Positions 16,978-43,067 of a stretch of DNA of 64,000 bases are shown here, one piece after another. Source of the DNA: Choanephora cucurbitarum (taxonomy: Eukaryota > Mucoromycota > Mucoromycetes > Mucorales > Choanephoraceae); assembly GCA_025331435.1 (NCBI GenBank), contig JAIWNI010000039.1:62001-126000 (forward strand), given 5' to 3'. The position numbers and the translations under genes are program-made. The notes beneath the pieces are model-generated. The model was not told where the DNA came from. It worked only from the letters and a program-made list of their open reading frames with translations, and did not search any database. Position 1 is the first letter of the stretch, and every line of letters starts with the position of its first letter.

Positions 16978-17357
16978 CTAACTGGATGTTTCCTTAAATT
17001 TCTTTGCTGCTTGTTCCATCCAAGGCTTAGGTGCTTGAGGCATTAATTGAGCCTATAGTATGATAAAGAAAGTAAGATATTTTTCTCCTTTCTTTCTATT
17101 TCTTATTCGTTATACTCTACATTAACAAGAATCTTTTCAACTGTTTCTGTAGGTTGAGCACCAACAGTCAACCAATATTTTGCACGGTCAAAGTTAAGAT
17201 TGATCAGCTTGCTGCCTGTTTCATCAGGAATAGGGTTGTATGTGCCAATCTTCTCGATAGGCTTGCTGTTACGACCTGTACGGGCGTTGGCAATAACAAT
17301 GTGATAGAAAGGTAAATTACGGCGACCGTGGCGAGCAAGACGGATACGAACAACCAT
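16978..17357 (-). CDS. MRPS16: Mitochondrial small ribosomal subunit protein bS16m
   Basis: Ribosomal protein S16 family: MVVRIRLARHGRRNLPFYHI, then KPIEKIGTYNPIP, then FDRAKYWLTVGAQPTETVEKIL. Exon 1 is 17357-17121 and exon 2 is 17052-16978, joined by a GTAGAG donor and TATAG acceptor in phase 0, so the protein continues NAQLMPQAPKPWMEQAAKK. Total about 103 residues, a usual length for mitochondrial S16. Without splicing the frame ends early at VEYNE. Assigned to the mitochondrial ribosome by family. Confidence 0.9.
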
Positions 17358-18102
17358 AGTATATGATGAACACAGAAAAAAAATTGGGTCCCTTGCCTTC
17401 TTAGTCTTTTACTTTTTTTCGAGACAAGTCACAGTCATGTCAGGTGATTTTGACAGCTTGAAGTTGCCTTACAAAGCTATATGCAATCTTGCCAAAGCTT
17501 TGGCAGAGTAGCTTCTTTTCATAAAAACACAAGGTCAAGAAAGCCAAATGAAGCTGAGACTTGATGAAGGTTTCTTGTTTGGCTTTGTGTACAGAAGGCC
17601 TATTTTCGATTAATAACTACAAGAAGGGCGTATTATTCTCACCTACCAAGGCACATTTTGCATCGTAATCTTATTTAAGAGATTTTGAGACAAATACTTG
17701 ATACAACCTTTGAAGCCTACCTTCTTGATATTCAGACTTAGCGGCTCCAAAGCGAGAAAAAGTGTTGCTGCCTTGAAGTGACAAAGTATTTTATTTGAAG
17801 CCATCGACAACCTCCTCTGACTCATGTCCGTGAAAAGGAGCAGAGATGGACAGTCCAATTAAGGTAAGCTCAACATAGCCTGATGTTGGGAAGGCGTATA
17901 TCAAAGTAGAAAAGGGTCTAATCGATGGGCAAGCAGTGCCTATATATGTATGATTCATGTTTGCAGAACTTGTTGACTAAGGTATGTCATGTTCTCTACA
18001 TTGGTTGACCCTGTTTTGAGTTTAACGAACTAGTACTACTGCTTGTCACACTTAAACCAACAACAGGCATTTTGAGCGTTTATTTGATCTAGTACGAGTC
18101 TT
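17358..18102. other. Intergenic, S16 promoter and downstream of the fusion gene
   Basis: No convincing gene. A short minus-strand open frame at 17858-17643 lacks an ATG start and matches nothing I know. Confidence 0.45.
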
Positions 18103-19873
18103 TTATTCATTGGAAACAAATCTTTTCAACACAAGACATCGGTCCCAGCCCTGATCGTCTTTGTAAACTGCGTACTGCTGCCAGCCATCATCAAACCACA
18201 GTTCTTTGACTTTCTGCATCATGCCTCTGCCGCATTCCAATACAACAACACCATCTTGCCTCAAAACCATAATTGCAACATCTTTGAGTATATGGTACCA
18301 CTCATACCCATTCTGGCCAGCAAATAAAGCCTCGGGTGGCTCTTGCTCAAACGTGTTCAATTCCCTCTTTGTTTTGGATACCTTGGCTTGATCCAAGTAG
18401 GGTGGATTGCATACAAGCACATCAAACGGCTCTTCAGAAGGAGGCAAAGAAAATGTATGGATGTCTCGTGCGAGCCATTTAATTTTATCGCCACTGTTAT
18501 TTGAGAGCAACTTGCTGCTATTTTCCGCTGCTATCTTCAAAGCTGCTTCACTGATATCAATGCCCACACCAGTTGCAGAGGGCGATAGCCTTTTAAGAAT
18601 AGAAATTAACAGATTTCCGCATCCTGTGCCCATGTCAATGATCCTTGTGTTCTCTCTATCTATCCCTACTGCATCTACTGTAGCACGAACTAATGTCTCT
18701 GAGCTCCGGCGTGGAATAAGACAATCTTTCGTGATCTTAAAGACATGACCACAGAACTCCTTTTGCGAAATCACATAAGAAGCTATTTGATTTTCTGTAA
18801 GTGAATCAGGATCTATGCCAGCTTCTTTCAGTTGCTCAATCTGCTTCTCCTTTTTCTTATTGAAAAACCTCTCTTCACGATCGCAAATCACTTTGAATTT
18901 TGAAGGTTCTGGCTGTATACTTACGATAGACGTGTTTAAGATTGGATGTGTAAAGGAGATAGAGATAAGTGATGTGCACAGTCCTTTGTCACTGTTCACT
19001 TTGAGAGGACATGTGAATTGTGAATTGCCTATGATAGGATGGCTGGAATGGGAGTAAAATGCTCTTCTTAGATTTACACTGTTCAAAGGTGTGTGAAGTG
19101 AAAGGTCTAGGCAAGTGATATGTCCTGAATTGTTTGAAGGTGTTTGAGATACAATTGTCATGCTTCGAACAACTTTTTCCGGAGCACTTAATCCAGATTT
19201 ATCAGCTTGAAAGAACACTGAGACATCTGTATCGCTGACAAATCCATGACATAGCACACGCATAACCATTTCAATCTTGTCTTCGTTATAGAGCTGTAAC
19301 ATGAGTTTTTTGGCATTTTCAGTCTTGGTAACGATAACCTTGAGACATAAAGAATGTTAGCAAGTAGAAAAATGCCTAATATGGGTGCTTACCAAACCAG
19401 ATGCAGCCTTTTGTATGTCGTTGACACAGAATAGTTTCTCCTCTACTGACTCTCTCTTTGCAATATTGTATCGAACAGCCTTTTCAAACATGACTGGATT
19501 CTAAAGATATTGTCAGTGCTTGCTGCATGTTGTGCAGTTATAGACAACTTACCAGTCCGGAAGGTTTCCATACAATAGCCAGATGATCGTCTTCATAGCA
19601 GATGCCTATGGGTATTGCTTCTATTTTCCTTGCTTCTTCCAAGTGTTTGTCGTACTTGATCTCAATAACATCGCCTGCCTTTACGAACTGAGTCTCTTCA
19701 GACACGACACCATTCAATGAGATCTCTTTCCTAACAAATGAGCGATGAAGATTCTCCTTTGAAGAAAAGAACTCTCTGTAGTGTTGCAACAGATATTTTC
19801 TAATGCGCTGATGATCAGACTCGTTTGGAACGACTATTTTTAGATGAGCTATGTTAGCTTTAGGTTCACTCAT
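18103..19873 (-). CDS. Fusion: degenerate RluA-type pseudouridine-synthase domain plus PrmC/HemK-type methyltransferase
   Basis: About 554 residues from three exons: 19873-19553, 19500-19393, 19338-18103, all GT-AG and phase 0. Residues ~35-75 look like an S4 RNA-binding domain (KEISLNGVVSEETQFVKAGD). Then comes YEDDHLAIVWKPSGL, typical of RluA/RluD pseudouridine synthases. The catalytic HRLD motif is replaced by NDIQ (134-137) directly before KAASGLVIVTKTENAKKLM, so the catalytic Asp is missing. The C-terminal third is a PrmC-like SAM methyltransferase: IPRRSSETLV (351-360), motif I DMGTGCGN (378-385) and NPPY (454-457), which in this family binds a glutamine amide. Likely a methyltransferase with an RNA-binding front end. 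A standard Mtq1 is also encoded at 42021-43067. Confidence 0.85.
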
Positions 19874-20128: not shown

Positions 20129-21421
20129 TTAGTTGTTTAACAATGGTCTACGTTGATCTTCGTTATGTTCATCGTCATCTTCCTGATCAACAGGGTCATA
20201 TTTTCCTTTCTTGTCTTTTCTGAATGGCATGCAGCATAAGATATAGGCAATACCATGCCAAGCTGAAACAAATAAGCCTTTGATATCTTGAAACAAACTG
20301 GCTCGACCATTGATAATTCTTTCTGGTCTCAATCGATGACGATTGTCAATCATAGCTCGGATAGATGTTACGACAGCACTTAATACACCTAAAGCTGTAC
20401 TAGCTGATATCAAGAACATGATGATTTGTTGATATTTGACTGCATTGCTGACAGGTGCACCACCCAAGATTTGACCAGTCATCATACCGGGGATAGCAAT
20501 TAGACCAATTACAGACATTTGGTTGATGGTGGGTAACATAGATAATCTAACAGCTTCGATAGCAATTGATTGGCCTGCTTCCCATCGACTAGCTCCAAAA
20601 GCTAAATAAGTTTCGATCTGTTCTCTACGGTTGCTGACACTGGACAGGACAGAACTAAGAGCAACAGCCATACCGCTCATAGCATTGCCTAGAAGCATAC
20701 CCATAGTAGGAATAAAAATTTCAGGAATCCAAAAAGGCTTTTGCTTCATAGCAAATCGAGTACCAATGATACCAACGACAAGGGTAGCAATACCTGAAGA
20801 GACCAATACTGATAAAAACTATTAGATTTGTTAGGTTGTGAGAAATCACACAAGGTGTTCGGTATTTCTTTTTTTTTTTGTAACCTTACCATGCCCTTGT
20901 ATGACTGTTTGGACTTATTATAAACAGTCTCATAGGCACCAAGAAGGATCAGAACGACTATTGTGTAGTGATGTTTTTTTTAGTAATTGTATATACGTCA
21001 TTTCATCGTACTTACAAGTCATAAAAAGCACAAGTGCTGGATGTCTAGCTTTGAATACATCTTCTAAGATGAAACCCTATCGTTTTTAACCAATCGCTTT
21101 AGTGTACAAGAAAAAATTAATGGGTAGGCTGTTGTAGCACTCACCATAATAGTTAACTGAATTAGACAACGAACGGCAGCAACAATTAATGTTTTCTCAA
21201 GCTTCAATCCCAAGACAAGAGAAATGCCGCCTAAAGAGAATGTAAATGTCAGTCAATGGTCAATTAGAATGAAGACGGAAATGCATACCGTTGATAAGAA
21301 TAAATGATGATGCAATAGCAACATTGATCCAGCTAAGGGTAGGAGCAGCACTTGGTTTGTCTCCTTCTTGCCCTATTGTAGTTATGTTGGCTACAAAGTC
21401 AAGTACTGTGCTTGAGTCCAT
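20129..21421 (-). CDS. UPF0014/FetB-type multi-spanning membrane protein (ALS3/STAR2-like)
   Basis: About 345 residues from five exons: 21421-21289, 21230-21145, 21076-21016, 20957-20890, 20818-20129, all in phase. About seven hydrophobic segments are seen. The family core is clear: GNAMSGMAVALS, then YLAFGASRWEA, then PTINQMSVIGLIAIPGMMTG and QILGGAPVSNAVKYQ. These match the bacterial FetB and plant ALS3/STAR2 membrane subunits of ABC-type exporters. A cytosolic acidic tail follows (DQEDDDEHNEDQRRPLLNN), ending in a possible acidic dileucine sorting signal. In bacteria and plants these proteins pair with a separate ATPase; none is seen nearby. Substrate unknown. The ATG at 21421 (MDSSTVLDF) is chosen because it opens the exon. 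Confidence 0.85.
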
Positions 21422-42020: not shown

Positions 42021-43067
42021 ATGCGCTCAAAAATTGTATCACAACAAGCAAAATGGATAAAACTGCTTTCAGCAGCCTGTGAAGGCGATATAGGGCATGC
42101 TAAGAGACAGCTGTTTTGGTTGAAAGAGAAAGTGGTACCTGACTCACATAGAAGAATGACGAATGACCTTTTAGATCAGGAAGTTGATCTACTAGATCAG
42201 TACGTCCATGAGCATGTTCATCATCATAAACCGTTACAATATATTTTGGGTAATACTAGATGTAAAACATGATAGTTGGCTTTCTTTTGATAGAAAAAGT
42301 TCTGTTTATTCTTCATGAATAAACTTATCAAGGTACACAGCCATTTTGCGAGTTAGATATTTTGACACGCCCTCCTACACTTATTCCTCGGTACGTAATT
42401 TATATTGTTGCTAGTAACAGCTGTCCCATGCTCATGTTATGAACCAAAACTTTCTAAAATAAACGATAGGTGGGAGACGGAAGAATGGACATACAAAGTT
42501 ATTGATCTTATAAAGCAATACGACATTTCAGCAATGAAAAGGCCATTGCATATTTTAGATATTTGTACCGGCTCGGGATGTATTGCACTCGCTTTAGCGA
42601 AGCACTTGCCCAAGAGCACAGTACATATCACTGGCCTTGATATATCCAAAAGAGCTATTTCATTGGCAGAGGAAAACCTTGATTTACATCGACACGAACT
42701 ACAAAATTCGGTAGAATTTAAGCATCAAGATGTTTTTCACTATCCTATAGAAAAAACTGCAGTGGATCTGATTGTATCAAATCCGCCTTATGTCACACAA
42801 GAAGAATATACCAAACTGGATCCAAATGTAAAAGACTGGGAGGACATACGTGCACTTGTGGCAGAAGAACAAGGAACTCGTGTTCATCAGCGTATTATTG
42901 ACCTAGCTAGTGCTATTAAGCCCAGATTTTCTCCTTTTCTATTCATGGAAATAGGCGGTACACATCAAGTGGGTCTACTGAAACAAATGATGAAGGACAA
43001 AGGTATCAAAAAGTCGACTGTCTGGAAAGATTTAGCTGGACAAGATCGAGTTGTTGTCGGCTATTGA
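42021..43067 (+). CDS. MTQ1: Peptide-release-factor glutamine methyltransferase, Mtq1/HemK type
   Basis: About 294 residues from three exons: 42021-42249, 42333-42390, 42470-43067. Methylates the GGQ glutamine of a translation release factor, in mitochondria for Mtq1. The helical N-terminal domain ends PLQYILGTQPFCELDI and joins TLIPRWETEEW, the usual PrmC linker. SAM motif I is DICTGSGC (126-133) and NPPY is at 200-203. The C-terminus (DLAGQDRVVVGY) is typical of PrmC. No clear mitochondrial presequence, though the N-terminus is basic (MRSKIVSQQAKWIK). The gene is flanked by inverted repeats upstream and a strong hairpin 28 bp after the stop. Confidence 0.9.

Follow-up and report, generated by a model that had tools for sequence, protein, structure and literature searches.

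An S4-RluA module joined to a PrmC/HemK-type methyltransferase in Choanephora cucurbitarum and other early-branching fungi

Introduction

A 64,000-nucleotide (nt) stretch of the Choanephora cucurbitarum genome (assembly GCA_025331435.1, contig JAIWNI010000039.1, positions 62,001 to 126,000; hereafter the window) contains a minus-strand gene, at window positions 18103..19873, whose product begins like an RluA-type pseudouridine synthase and ends like a PrmC/HemK methyltransferase. Do the two halves belong to one protein and, if so, what might the first do for the second? A preliminary description of this DNA had proposed an inactive synthase kept as an RNA-binding guide. Overall, we found its observation partly confirmed and its interpretation partly supported: the two-part architecture, the intact S-adenosylmethionine (SAM)-binding and NPPY motifs, the loss of the catalytic aspartate (Asp) here and in most relatives examined, and the joint inheritance of both halves in three fungal groups are established below.

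Results

One open frame spans the junction between the two halves

The gene consists of three predicted minus-strand exons, which together encode a 554-residue fusion protein:

19553..19873, minus strand: exon 1, residues 1-107 (N-terminus, S4 domain and start of the RluA domain)
19501..19552, minus strand: intron 1, 52 nt, GT..AG, phase 0
19393..19500, minus strand: exon 2, residues 108-143, with motif II
19339..19392, minus strand: intron 2, 54 nt, GT..AG, phase 0
18103..19338, minus strand: exon 3, residues 144-554 and stop codon (remaining RluA domain, linker and entire methyltransferase, in a single open frame)

The gene coordinates first proposed were exact, and the in-phase joining of the exons was borne out by the two phase-0 introns of the predicted model. 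The start of exon 1 is matched by the full-length Blakeslea ortholog P0001. As exon 3 reads as one open frame that starts within the RluA domain and ends at the stop codon, the junction between the S4-RluA part and the methyltransferase lies within a single exon; the same order also recurs widely among relatives found by protein database search, so the fusion is real. A gene-joining artefact was considered and rejected, given the single exon across the junction and the recurring orthologs. The deposited C. cucurbitarum protein P0002 (444 residues) is 100% identical to the window fusion over the part it covers. This public model of the locus begins in exon 2, without the S4 domain and motif I (KPSG).

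The fusion recurs in many early-branching fungi

Three protein database searches, with ∼8000 candidates scored in each, found fusion members in Mucoromycotina, Mortierellomycotina (Lobosporangium), Glomeromycotina (Paraglomus, Glomus, Funneliformis), Kickxellomycotina (Coemansia, Zancudomyces), Entomophthoromycotina (Massospora), Blastocladiomycota (Paraphysoderma), Chytridiomycota and Neocallimastigomycota (Anaeromyces, Neocallimastix, Piromyces), these being the groups to which we take the genera to belong. Outside fungi, the fusion was present in the red alga Rhodosorus marinus (taxonomy identifier 101924; the entry bears an MMETSP label, which presumably marks a transcriptome) and in environmental sequences. 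There was no named match from Dikarya, animals or plants among the ∼8000 candidates scored per search, which does not show absence from these groups. With many early-branching fungi, a red alga and environmental organisms sharing it, the two-part protein looks like an overlooked old kind of PrmC/HemK methyltransferase, not the quirk of a single genome.

From 100 fetched proteins we drew 44 relatives, which together with the window protein form the 45 aligned rows counted below. Sorting by length and coverage set aside another 28 as near-duplicates, joined models, pieces or short or partial models of fusion members, and sorting by length and Pfam a further 28 as PrmC-like proteins in which no RluA half was detected. 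Some aligned rows are incomplete: P0036 and P0056 lack S4, P0072 nearly so, and it is partial in P0014, P0016, P0065 and P0096; P0030 and P0076 miss part of RluA, and the deposited model of P0035 has no motif II. The second protein search gave seven proteins, namely the first query itself, the relatives or pieces P0045, P0048 and P0050, and the lone PrmC-like P0046, P0047 and P0049.

Several deposited models showed peculiarities of their own. The fusion model P0069 (Entophlyctis luteolus) runs on into an Arp2/3 p34-Arc domain (residues 604-834), probably two adjacent genes joined. Two species labels, Rhizopus delemar (P0009/P0010) and Rhizopus stolonifer (P0003/P0013), each cover a pair of distinct fusion proteins; P0010 and P0013 are near-identical across the two labels, pointing to paralogs or mislabelled assemblies. 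The N-terminal fusion piece P0048 (ena) also has a precomputed PF12680 domain, perhaps a further fusion or a joined transcript, and the first part of the PrmC-like P0077 (ena) resembles, as judged by eye, an unrelated phosphatase-type domain.

The front half keeps the RluA fold and has lost the catalytic Asp in most rows

The two halves and their motifs are laid out as follows:

19628..19852, minus strand: S4 domain, approximately residues 8-82 (structure alignment, PF01479)
18898..19627, minus strand: RluA/RluD-like catalytic fold, approximately residues 83-290, split by both introns
19556..19567, minus strand: motif I KPSG, residues 103-106
19411..19422, minus strand: motif II, NDIQ where H/NRLD is expected, residues 134-137
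19000..19080, minus strand: motif III region, residues 230-256, with Arg234 and HPIIG
18823..18909, minus strand: linker helix EPxKF...RE, approximately residues 287-315, bridging the RluA C-terminus to the methyltransferase
18121..18777, minus strand: PrmC/HemK-type methyltransferase, residues 331-549
18613..18636, minus strand: SAM-binding motif DMGTGCGN, residues 378-385
18397..18408, minus strand: catalytic NPPY, residues 454-457

In the predicted model of the Blakeslea ortholog, which is confident overall (predicted template modelling score (pTM) 0.83), residues 6-311 align to complete RluD (2ist) and the linker helix occupies 289-315. The later RluA motifs, initially reported as absent, are thus present: the front half is a complete RluA fold with Arg234 and HPIIG, and the motif III segment of Borealophlyctis (HQPRIHL..HPVIG) aligns to that of RluD (HQIRVHM..HPLVG). 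The motif I Lys is found in 44 of the 45 rows, and the linker residues P288, K290, F291 and E298 are each kept in 41 or 42. Profile matches were weaker. The RluA family model TIGR00005 gave the window protein 54.7 bits, under its cut-off of 192.7, and matched 38 of 44 relatives at E 0.01 (best E 5.3e-33), and PF01479 (S4) matched 8/44 at E 0.1.

PMC3919597 describes the motif II Asp as conserved in every known pseudouridine synthase sequence, with loss of activity on its mutation in TruA, TruB, RluA and RsuA. It also gives the Tyr as highly conserved but not invariant, places an Arg in motif III, and has S4 and motif III facing the RNA in relatives such as RluB. At the Asp, motif II Arg, Tyr and motif III Arg positions the window protein has Q137, D135, M169 and R234, respectively. 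It shows the S4 and RluA fold and the motif III Arg of RluA-family pseudouridine synthases, without the Asp or the motif II Arg. The two other RluA loci detected in the same genome served as a control and keep NRLD (motif II NRLDLPTSG and NRLDIMTSG; motif III HQIRVHLR). The initial report that the Asp needed for pseudouridylation is missing from the window protein is borne out.

Across the 45 rows, the Asp column holds Q (20 rows), E (8), D (8), G (3), M, N, A, P and Y (one each) and one gap. All eight Asp rows are gut fungi or chytrids, namely Anaeromyces, a protein 82% identical to the Anaeromyces one, Neocallimastix, Piromyces, Borealophlyctis, Nowakowskiella, Siphonaria and Rhizoclosmatium; Asp, Tyr and motif III Arg occur together in five rows, the four from gut fungi and Borealophlyctis. 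The label 'inactive' hence cannot be applied to the family as a whole. No relative keeping HRLD in the order of a known family came to light, as HRLD was read in 0/45 aligned rows, one of them gapped there. The motif II Arg is rare (4/45 rows, and 0/35 fungal rows, one of these being a gap) and the motif III Arg common (36/45), a pattern that would fit binding without catalysis. Since the Asp-bearing rows also lack the motif II Arg, they may be inactive as well. Judging by these alignments, the catalytic centre appears mostly lost across the family and much of the remainder kept. Net charges of S4/RluA, computed for five rows, were +2/0 in the window protein and in Blakeslea, +4/-2 in Mucor, +4/+3 in Borealophlyctis and +6/+4 in Anaeromyces.

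The methyltransferase half is of the PrmC type

Both signature motifs of the back half are invariant: D378, G380, G382 and G384 of the SAM-binding motif and the whole of NPPY are found in 45/45 rows. The PrmC-like EPxxA segment is likewise kept (E in 42, P in 44 and A in 44 of the 45 rows), and the PrmC methyltransferase fold is present. In PrmC, NPPY coordinates the GGQ motif of RF1, according to PMC5372719. The best NCBIfam model was the release-factor PrmC model TIGR03534, which all 44 relatives match at E 0.01; the window protein scored 167 bits, below the cut-off of 199.1, and the genome's own Mtq1 also fell short (193.1). The hemK subfamily model TIGR00536 (cut-off 115.5) was passed by the window protein at 116 bits and narrowly missed by Blakeslea (110.9). 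PF17827 (PrmC_N) was not listed at E 1 for the window protein, P0055, P0038 or P0067; the lone PrmC-like P0041 matched it at 7.7e-20 and the genome's Mtq1 at 0.12. Profile scores and the predicted structure of the Blakeslea ortholog thus uphold the assignment to the PrmC type.

Both halves travelled together and remain constrained

The methyltransferase tree comprised 76 rows (45 fusion rows, a duplicate of fusion row P0096, the methyltransferase-only piece P0081, 28 PrmC-like proteins and the window's Mtq1). A branch with 100/99 support separated all fusion rows and P0081 from the 28 PrmC-like proteins and Mtq1, the latter on a long branch (2.16) that makes its exact placement unsure. Within the fusion, Mucoromycotina (19 rows, 100/98), Glomeromycotina (three rows, 100/99) and gut fungi (four rows, 100/100) formed groups, and a front-half tree from which motif II had been excluded returned the same three (95/85, 100/100 and 100/100, respectively), indicating that the halves travelled together within these groups. 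The two trees disagree in places inside Mucoromycotina (for example on Pilobolus), and neither resolves the deeper order. A single origin of the fusion is the simplest reading. The Asp state requires two changes on the unrooted front-half tree, which fits one gain and one loss, or an ancestral Asp with more losses if the RluA origin is counted.

Columns conserved at ≥90% over the 45 rows number 33/222 in the methyltransferase, 5/203 in RluA, 4/45 in the linker and 0/75 in S4, the last figure being depressed by rows in which S4 is partial or absent. The front half therefore evolves faster than the methyltransferase over long distances. Between Choanephora and Blakeslea, identity is 64/75 (85%) in S4, 158/203 (78%) in RluA and 175/222 (79%) in the methyltransferase. 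The mean pairwise identities among 14 Mucoromycotina rows (91 pairs; 5 of the 19 rows excluded as incomplete or doubtful) are 51%, 50% and 54%, respectively. On these identities, the front half is not decaying within the window protein's own group and is still constrained, as its proposed retention would have it.

Separate HemK-type genes and the probable cellular site

The same genome carries further HemK-type sequences, one of them in the window:

42021-43067, plus strand: Mtq1-like PrmC-type gene (exons 42021-42249, 42333-42390 and 42470-43067; 294 residues; TIGR03534 193 bits)

Another contig carries an Mtq2-like exon, whose 61.3 bits fall below the cut-off of 87. To our knowledge, yeast and human have no more than two established HemK-type enzymes. 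Two identities for the fusion were tried and rejected. A recent duplicate of the Mtq1 gene 22 kb away is contradicted by 25.6% identity and by positions on opposite sides of the 100/99 branch, and Mtq2 itself by 24.1 bits with TIGR00537 (Mtq2/HEMK2), against a cut-off of 87.

We take Anaeromyces, Neocallimastix and Piromyces to be mammal-gut genera. PMC10978972 describes the hydrogenosomes of anaerobic gut fungi from mammals as lacking a genome; the hints of organelle translation factors that it mentions come from tortoise-gut genera, none of them among the fusion carriers here. The retention of the fusion in three genera with genome-less hydrogenosomes, together with the separate Mtq1 and Mtq2-like exon, suggests that it is probably not an organelle enzyme; in lineages other than gut fungi, an organellar role may still apply.

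Neighbouring frames

Two other frames border the fusion gene, and as the second covers profile positions 87-241 of 242, more of its exons probably lie upstream:

17103-17408, minus strand: Ribosomal_S16 frame with the full domain (PF00886, E 7.8e-27), near the 3′ end of the fusion gene
20129-20818, minus strand: UPF0014 family frame (PF03649, E 4e-51)

Discussion

Our preferred explanation is an old eukaryotic fusion of S4, an RluA/RluD-type fold and a PrmC/HemK methyltransferase that would combine glutamine methylation with RNA docking; taken as a whole, we regard it as evenly balanced between right and wrong. It has four steps, in falling order of confidence. The methyltransferase would be active, given its invariant motifs. 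It would methylate, with SAM as the donor, a glutamine side-chain amide of a protein linked to translation, a target suggested by PrmC being the nearest family by profile and structure and by the kept EPxxA. It would act in the cytosol or nucleus. Finally, and as the weakest step, the S4-RluA module, which would no longer isomerise uridine, may dock the enzyme on structured RNA, probably the ribosomal RNA (rRNA) of the ribosome or pre-ribosome, standing in for the N-terminal domain that selects the substrate of free-standing PrmC. In those chytrids and anaerobic gut fungi that keep the Asp, catalysis by the module may persist or may have ceased recently. Docking is made plausible by E. coli K-12, in which the same RF2 variant relieves the effects of both rluD and prmC loss (PMC5373646), so that the two bacterial enzymes meet at termination. 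Similarly, PMC13294482 describes PUS1 bound to a mitoribosomal intermediate with its catalytic pocket pointing away from the rRNA.

Several points count against this explanation. Known PrmC- and Mtq2-type enzymes methylate the GGQ glutamine, and the mitochondrial and cytosolic factors each appear to have an enzyme of their own in this fungus. With a TIGR03534 score below the cut-off, the window protein need not be specific for release factors. Nor is its front half basic, which lends docking little support here, and the deep branches of the front-half tree are long and weakly supported.

A more specific version, to which we give slightly less than an even chance, is that the fusion represents a third ancient eukaryotic HemK/PrmC class beside Mtq1/HEMK1 and Mtq2/HEMK2, carried on an RluD-like module and modifying a glutamine of cytosolic translation, with the synthase dead in most lineages and maybe working in gut fungi and some chytrids. 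If so, it would be a bifunctional enzyme caught while becoming a targeted methyltransferase.

Among the alternatives, it is unlikely that the back half methylates RNA (adenine N6, for example) and is guided by the RluA fold to rRNA, transfer RNA or small nuclear RNA. We hold it no more and no less doubtful that the RluA module plays no part in RNA binding or guidance and serves as a scaffold for protein-protein contacts or dimerisation; the near-neutral charge of the module in the window protein and the confident overall model (pTM 0.83) would suit a scaffold, but the protein retains S4 and motif III, which face RNA in relatives such as RluB (PMC3919597). An organellar glutamine methyltransferase for a release factor or ribosomal protein, that is, an extra Mtq1/HEMK1, is improbable: TIGR03534 as top NCBIfam model speaks for it, yet the window has its own Mtq1 beyond the 100/99 branch, if on a long branch there, the fusion persists in the three anaerobic gut-fungus genera, and no mitochondrial presequence was evident by eye (no predictor was run). 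Less probable by a little is a front half that works as a pseudouridine synthase through another residue, making the protein bifunctional. The full fold, the retained motif III Arg and the co-occurrence of Asp, Tyr and Arg in 5/45 rows are what one would expect of it, but Gln, Asp and Met occupy the Asp, motif II Arg and Tyr positions of the window protein, the motif II Arg is missing from the fungal rows, and Asp mutants of TruA, TruB, RluA and RsuA lack activity (PMC3919597). A chimeric gene model or bacterial contamination is almost certainly wrong despite the truncated deposited Choanephora model, as a single exon covers the junction, two introns interrupt the gene, its contig is 261,799 bases long, and the same order occurs in proteins of many other species, including the MMETSP-labelled Rhodosorus entry.

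The fusion also stands apart from the systems it most resembles. Compared with PrmC/HemK (E. coli 2b3t, T. maritima 1nv8), it has an S4-RluA module of ∼290 residues in front, no listed PrmC_N and a TIGR03534 score under the cut-off. It shares with RluD/RluC the S4 and catalytic fold, KPxG and motif III Arg, but the window protein has substitutions for the catalytic Asp, the motif II Arg and the Tyr, and a methyltransferase is appended. Mtq1/HEMK1 has a PrmC-type methyltransferase, 25.6% identical over 266 columns, but no RluA module, and groups with the free-standing PrmC-like proteins. Mtq2/HEMK2 relies on Trm112, and the fusion scores low on its model. Bifunctional PrmC/TrmB (PRK01544, NF002421) likewise joins PrmC to a second, RNA-modifying domain, but the partner differs and the window protein reaches 90.5 bits against a cut-off of 567. 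Pseudouridine synthase folds are also bound to ribosomal intermediates in the assembly factors mt-LAF3 of trypanosomatids and human PUS1; these are mitochondrial, and the accessible portions of their descriptions mention no methyltransferase fusion. We found no description of the fusion in the literature searched, which includes the available parts of PMC5372719 and PMC7718762 and leaves most subscription journals outside its coverage; within that coverage, the initial statement that the domain order was not known to be described holds. Both domains are of known kinds, and it is their combination, its breadth and the series of Asp losses that appear undescribed.

Should the fusion be a third HemK-type enzyme, this would imply a methylation site that has escaped notice, on a glutamine or in RNA, and probably within the translation machinery. 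The family offers pseudouridine synthase domains with and without the Asp, a natural series in which the partner stays the same. It thus allows a direct test of whether a dead RNA-modifying enzyme has been put to new use for docking.
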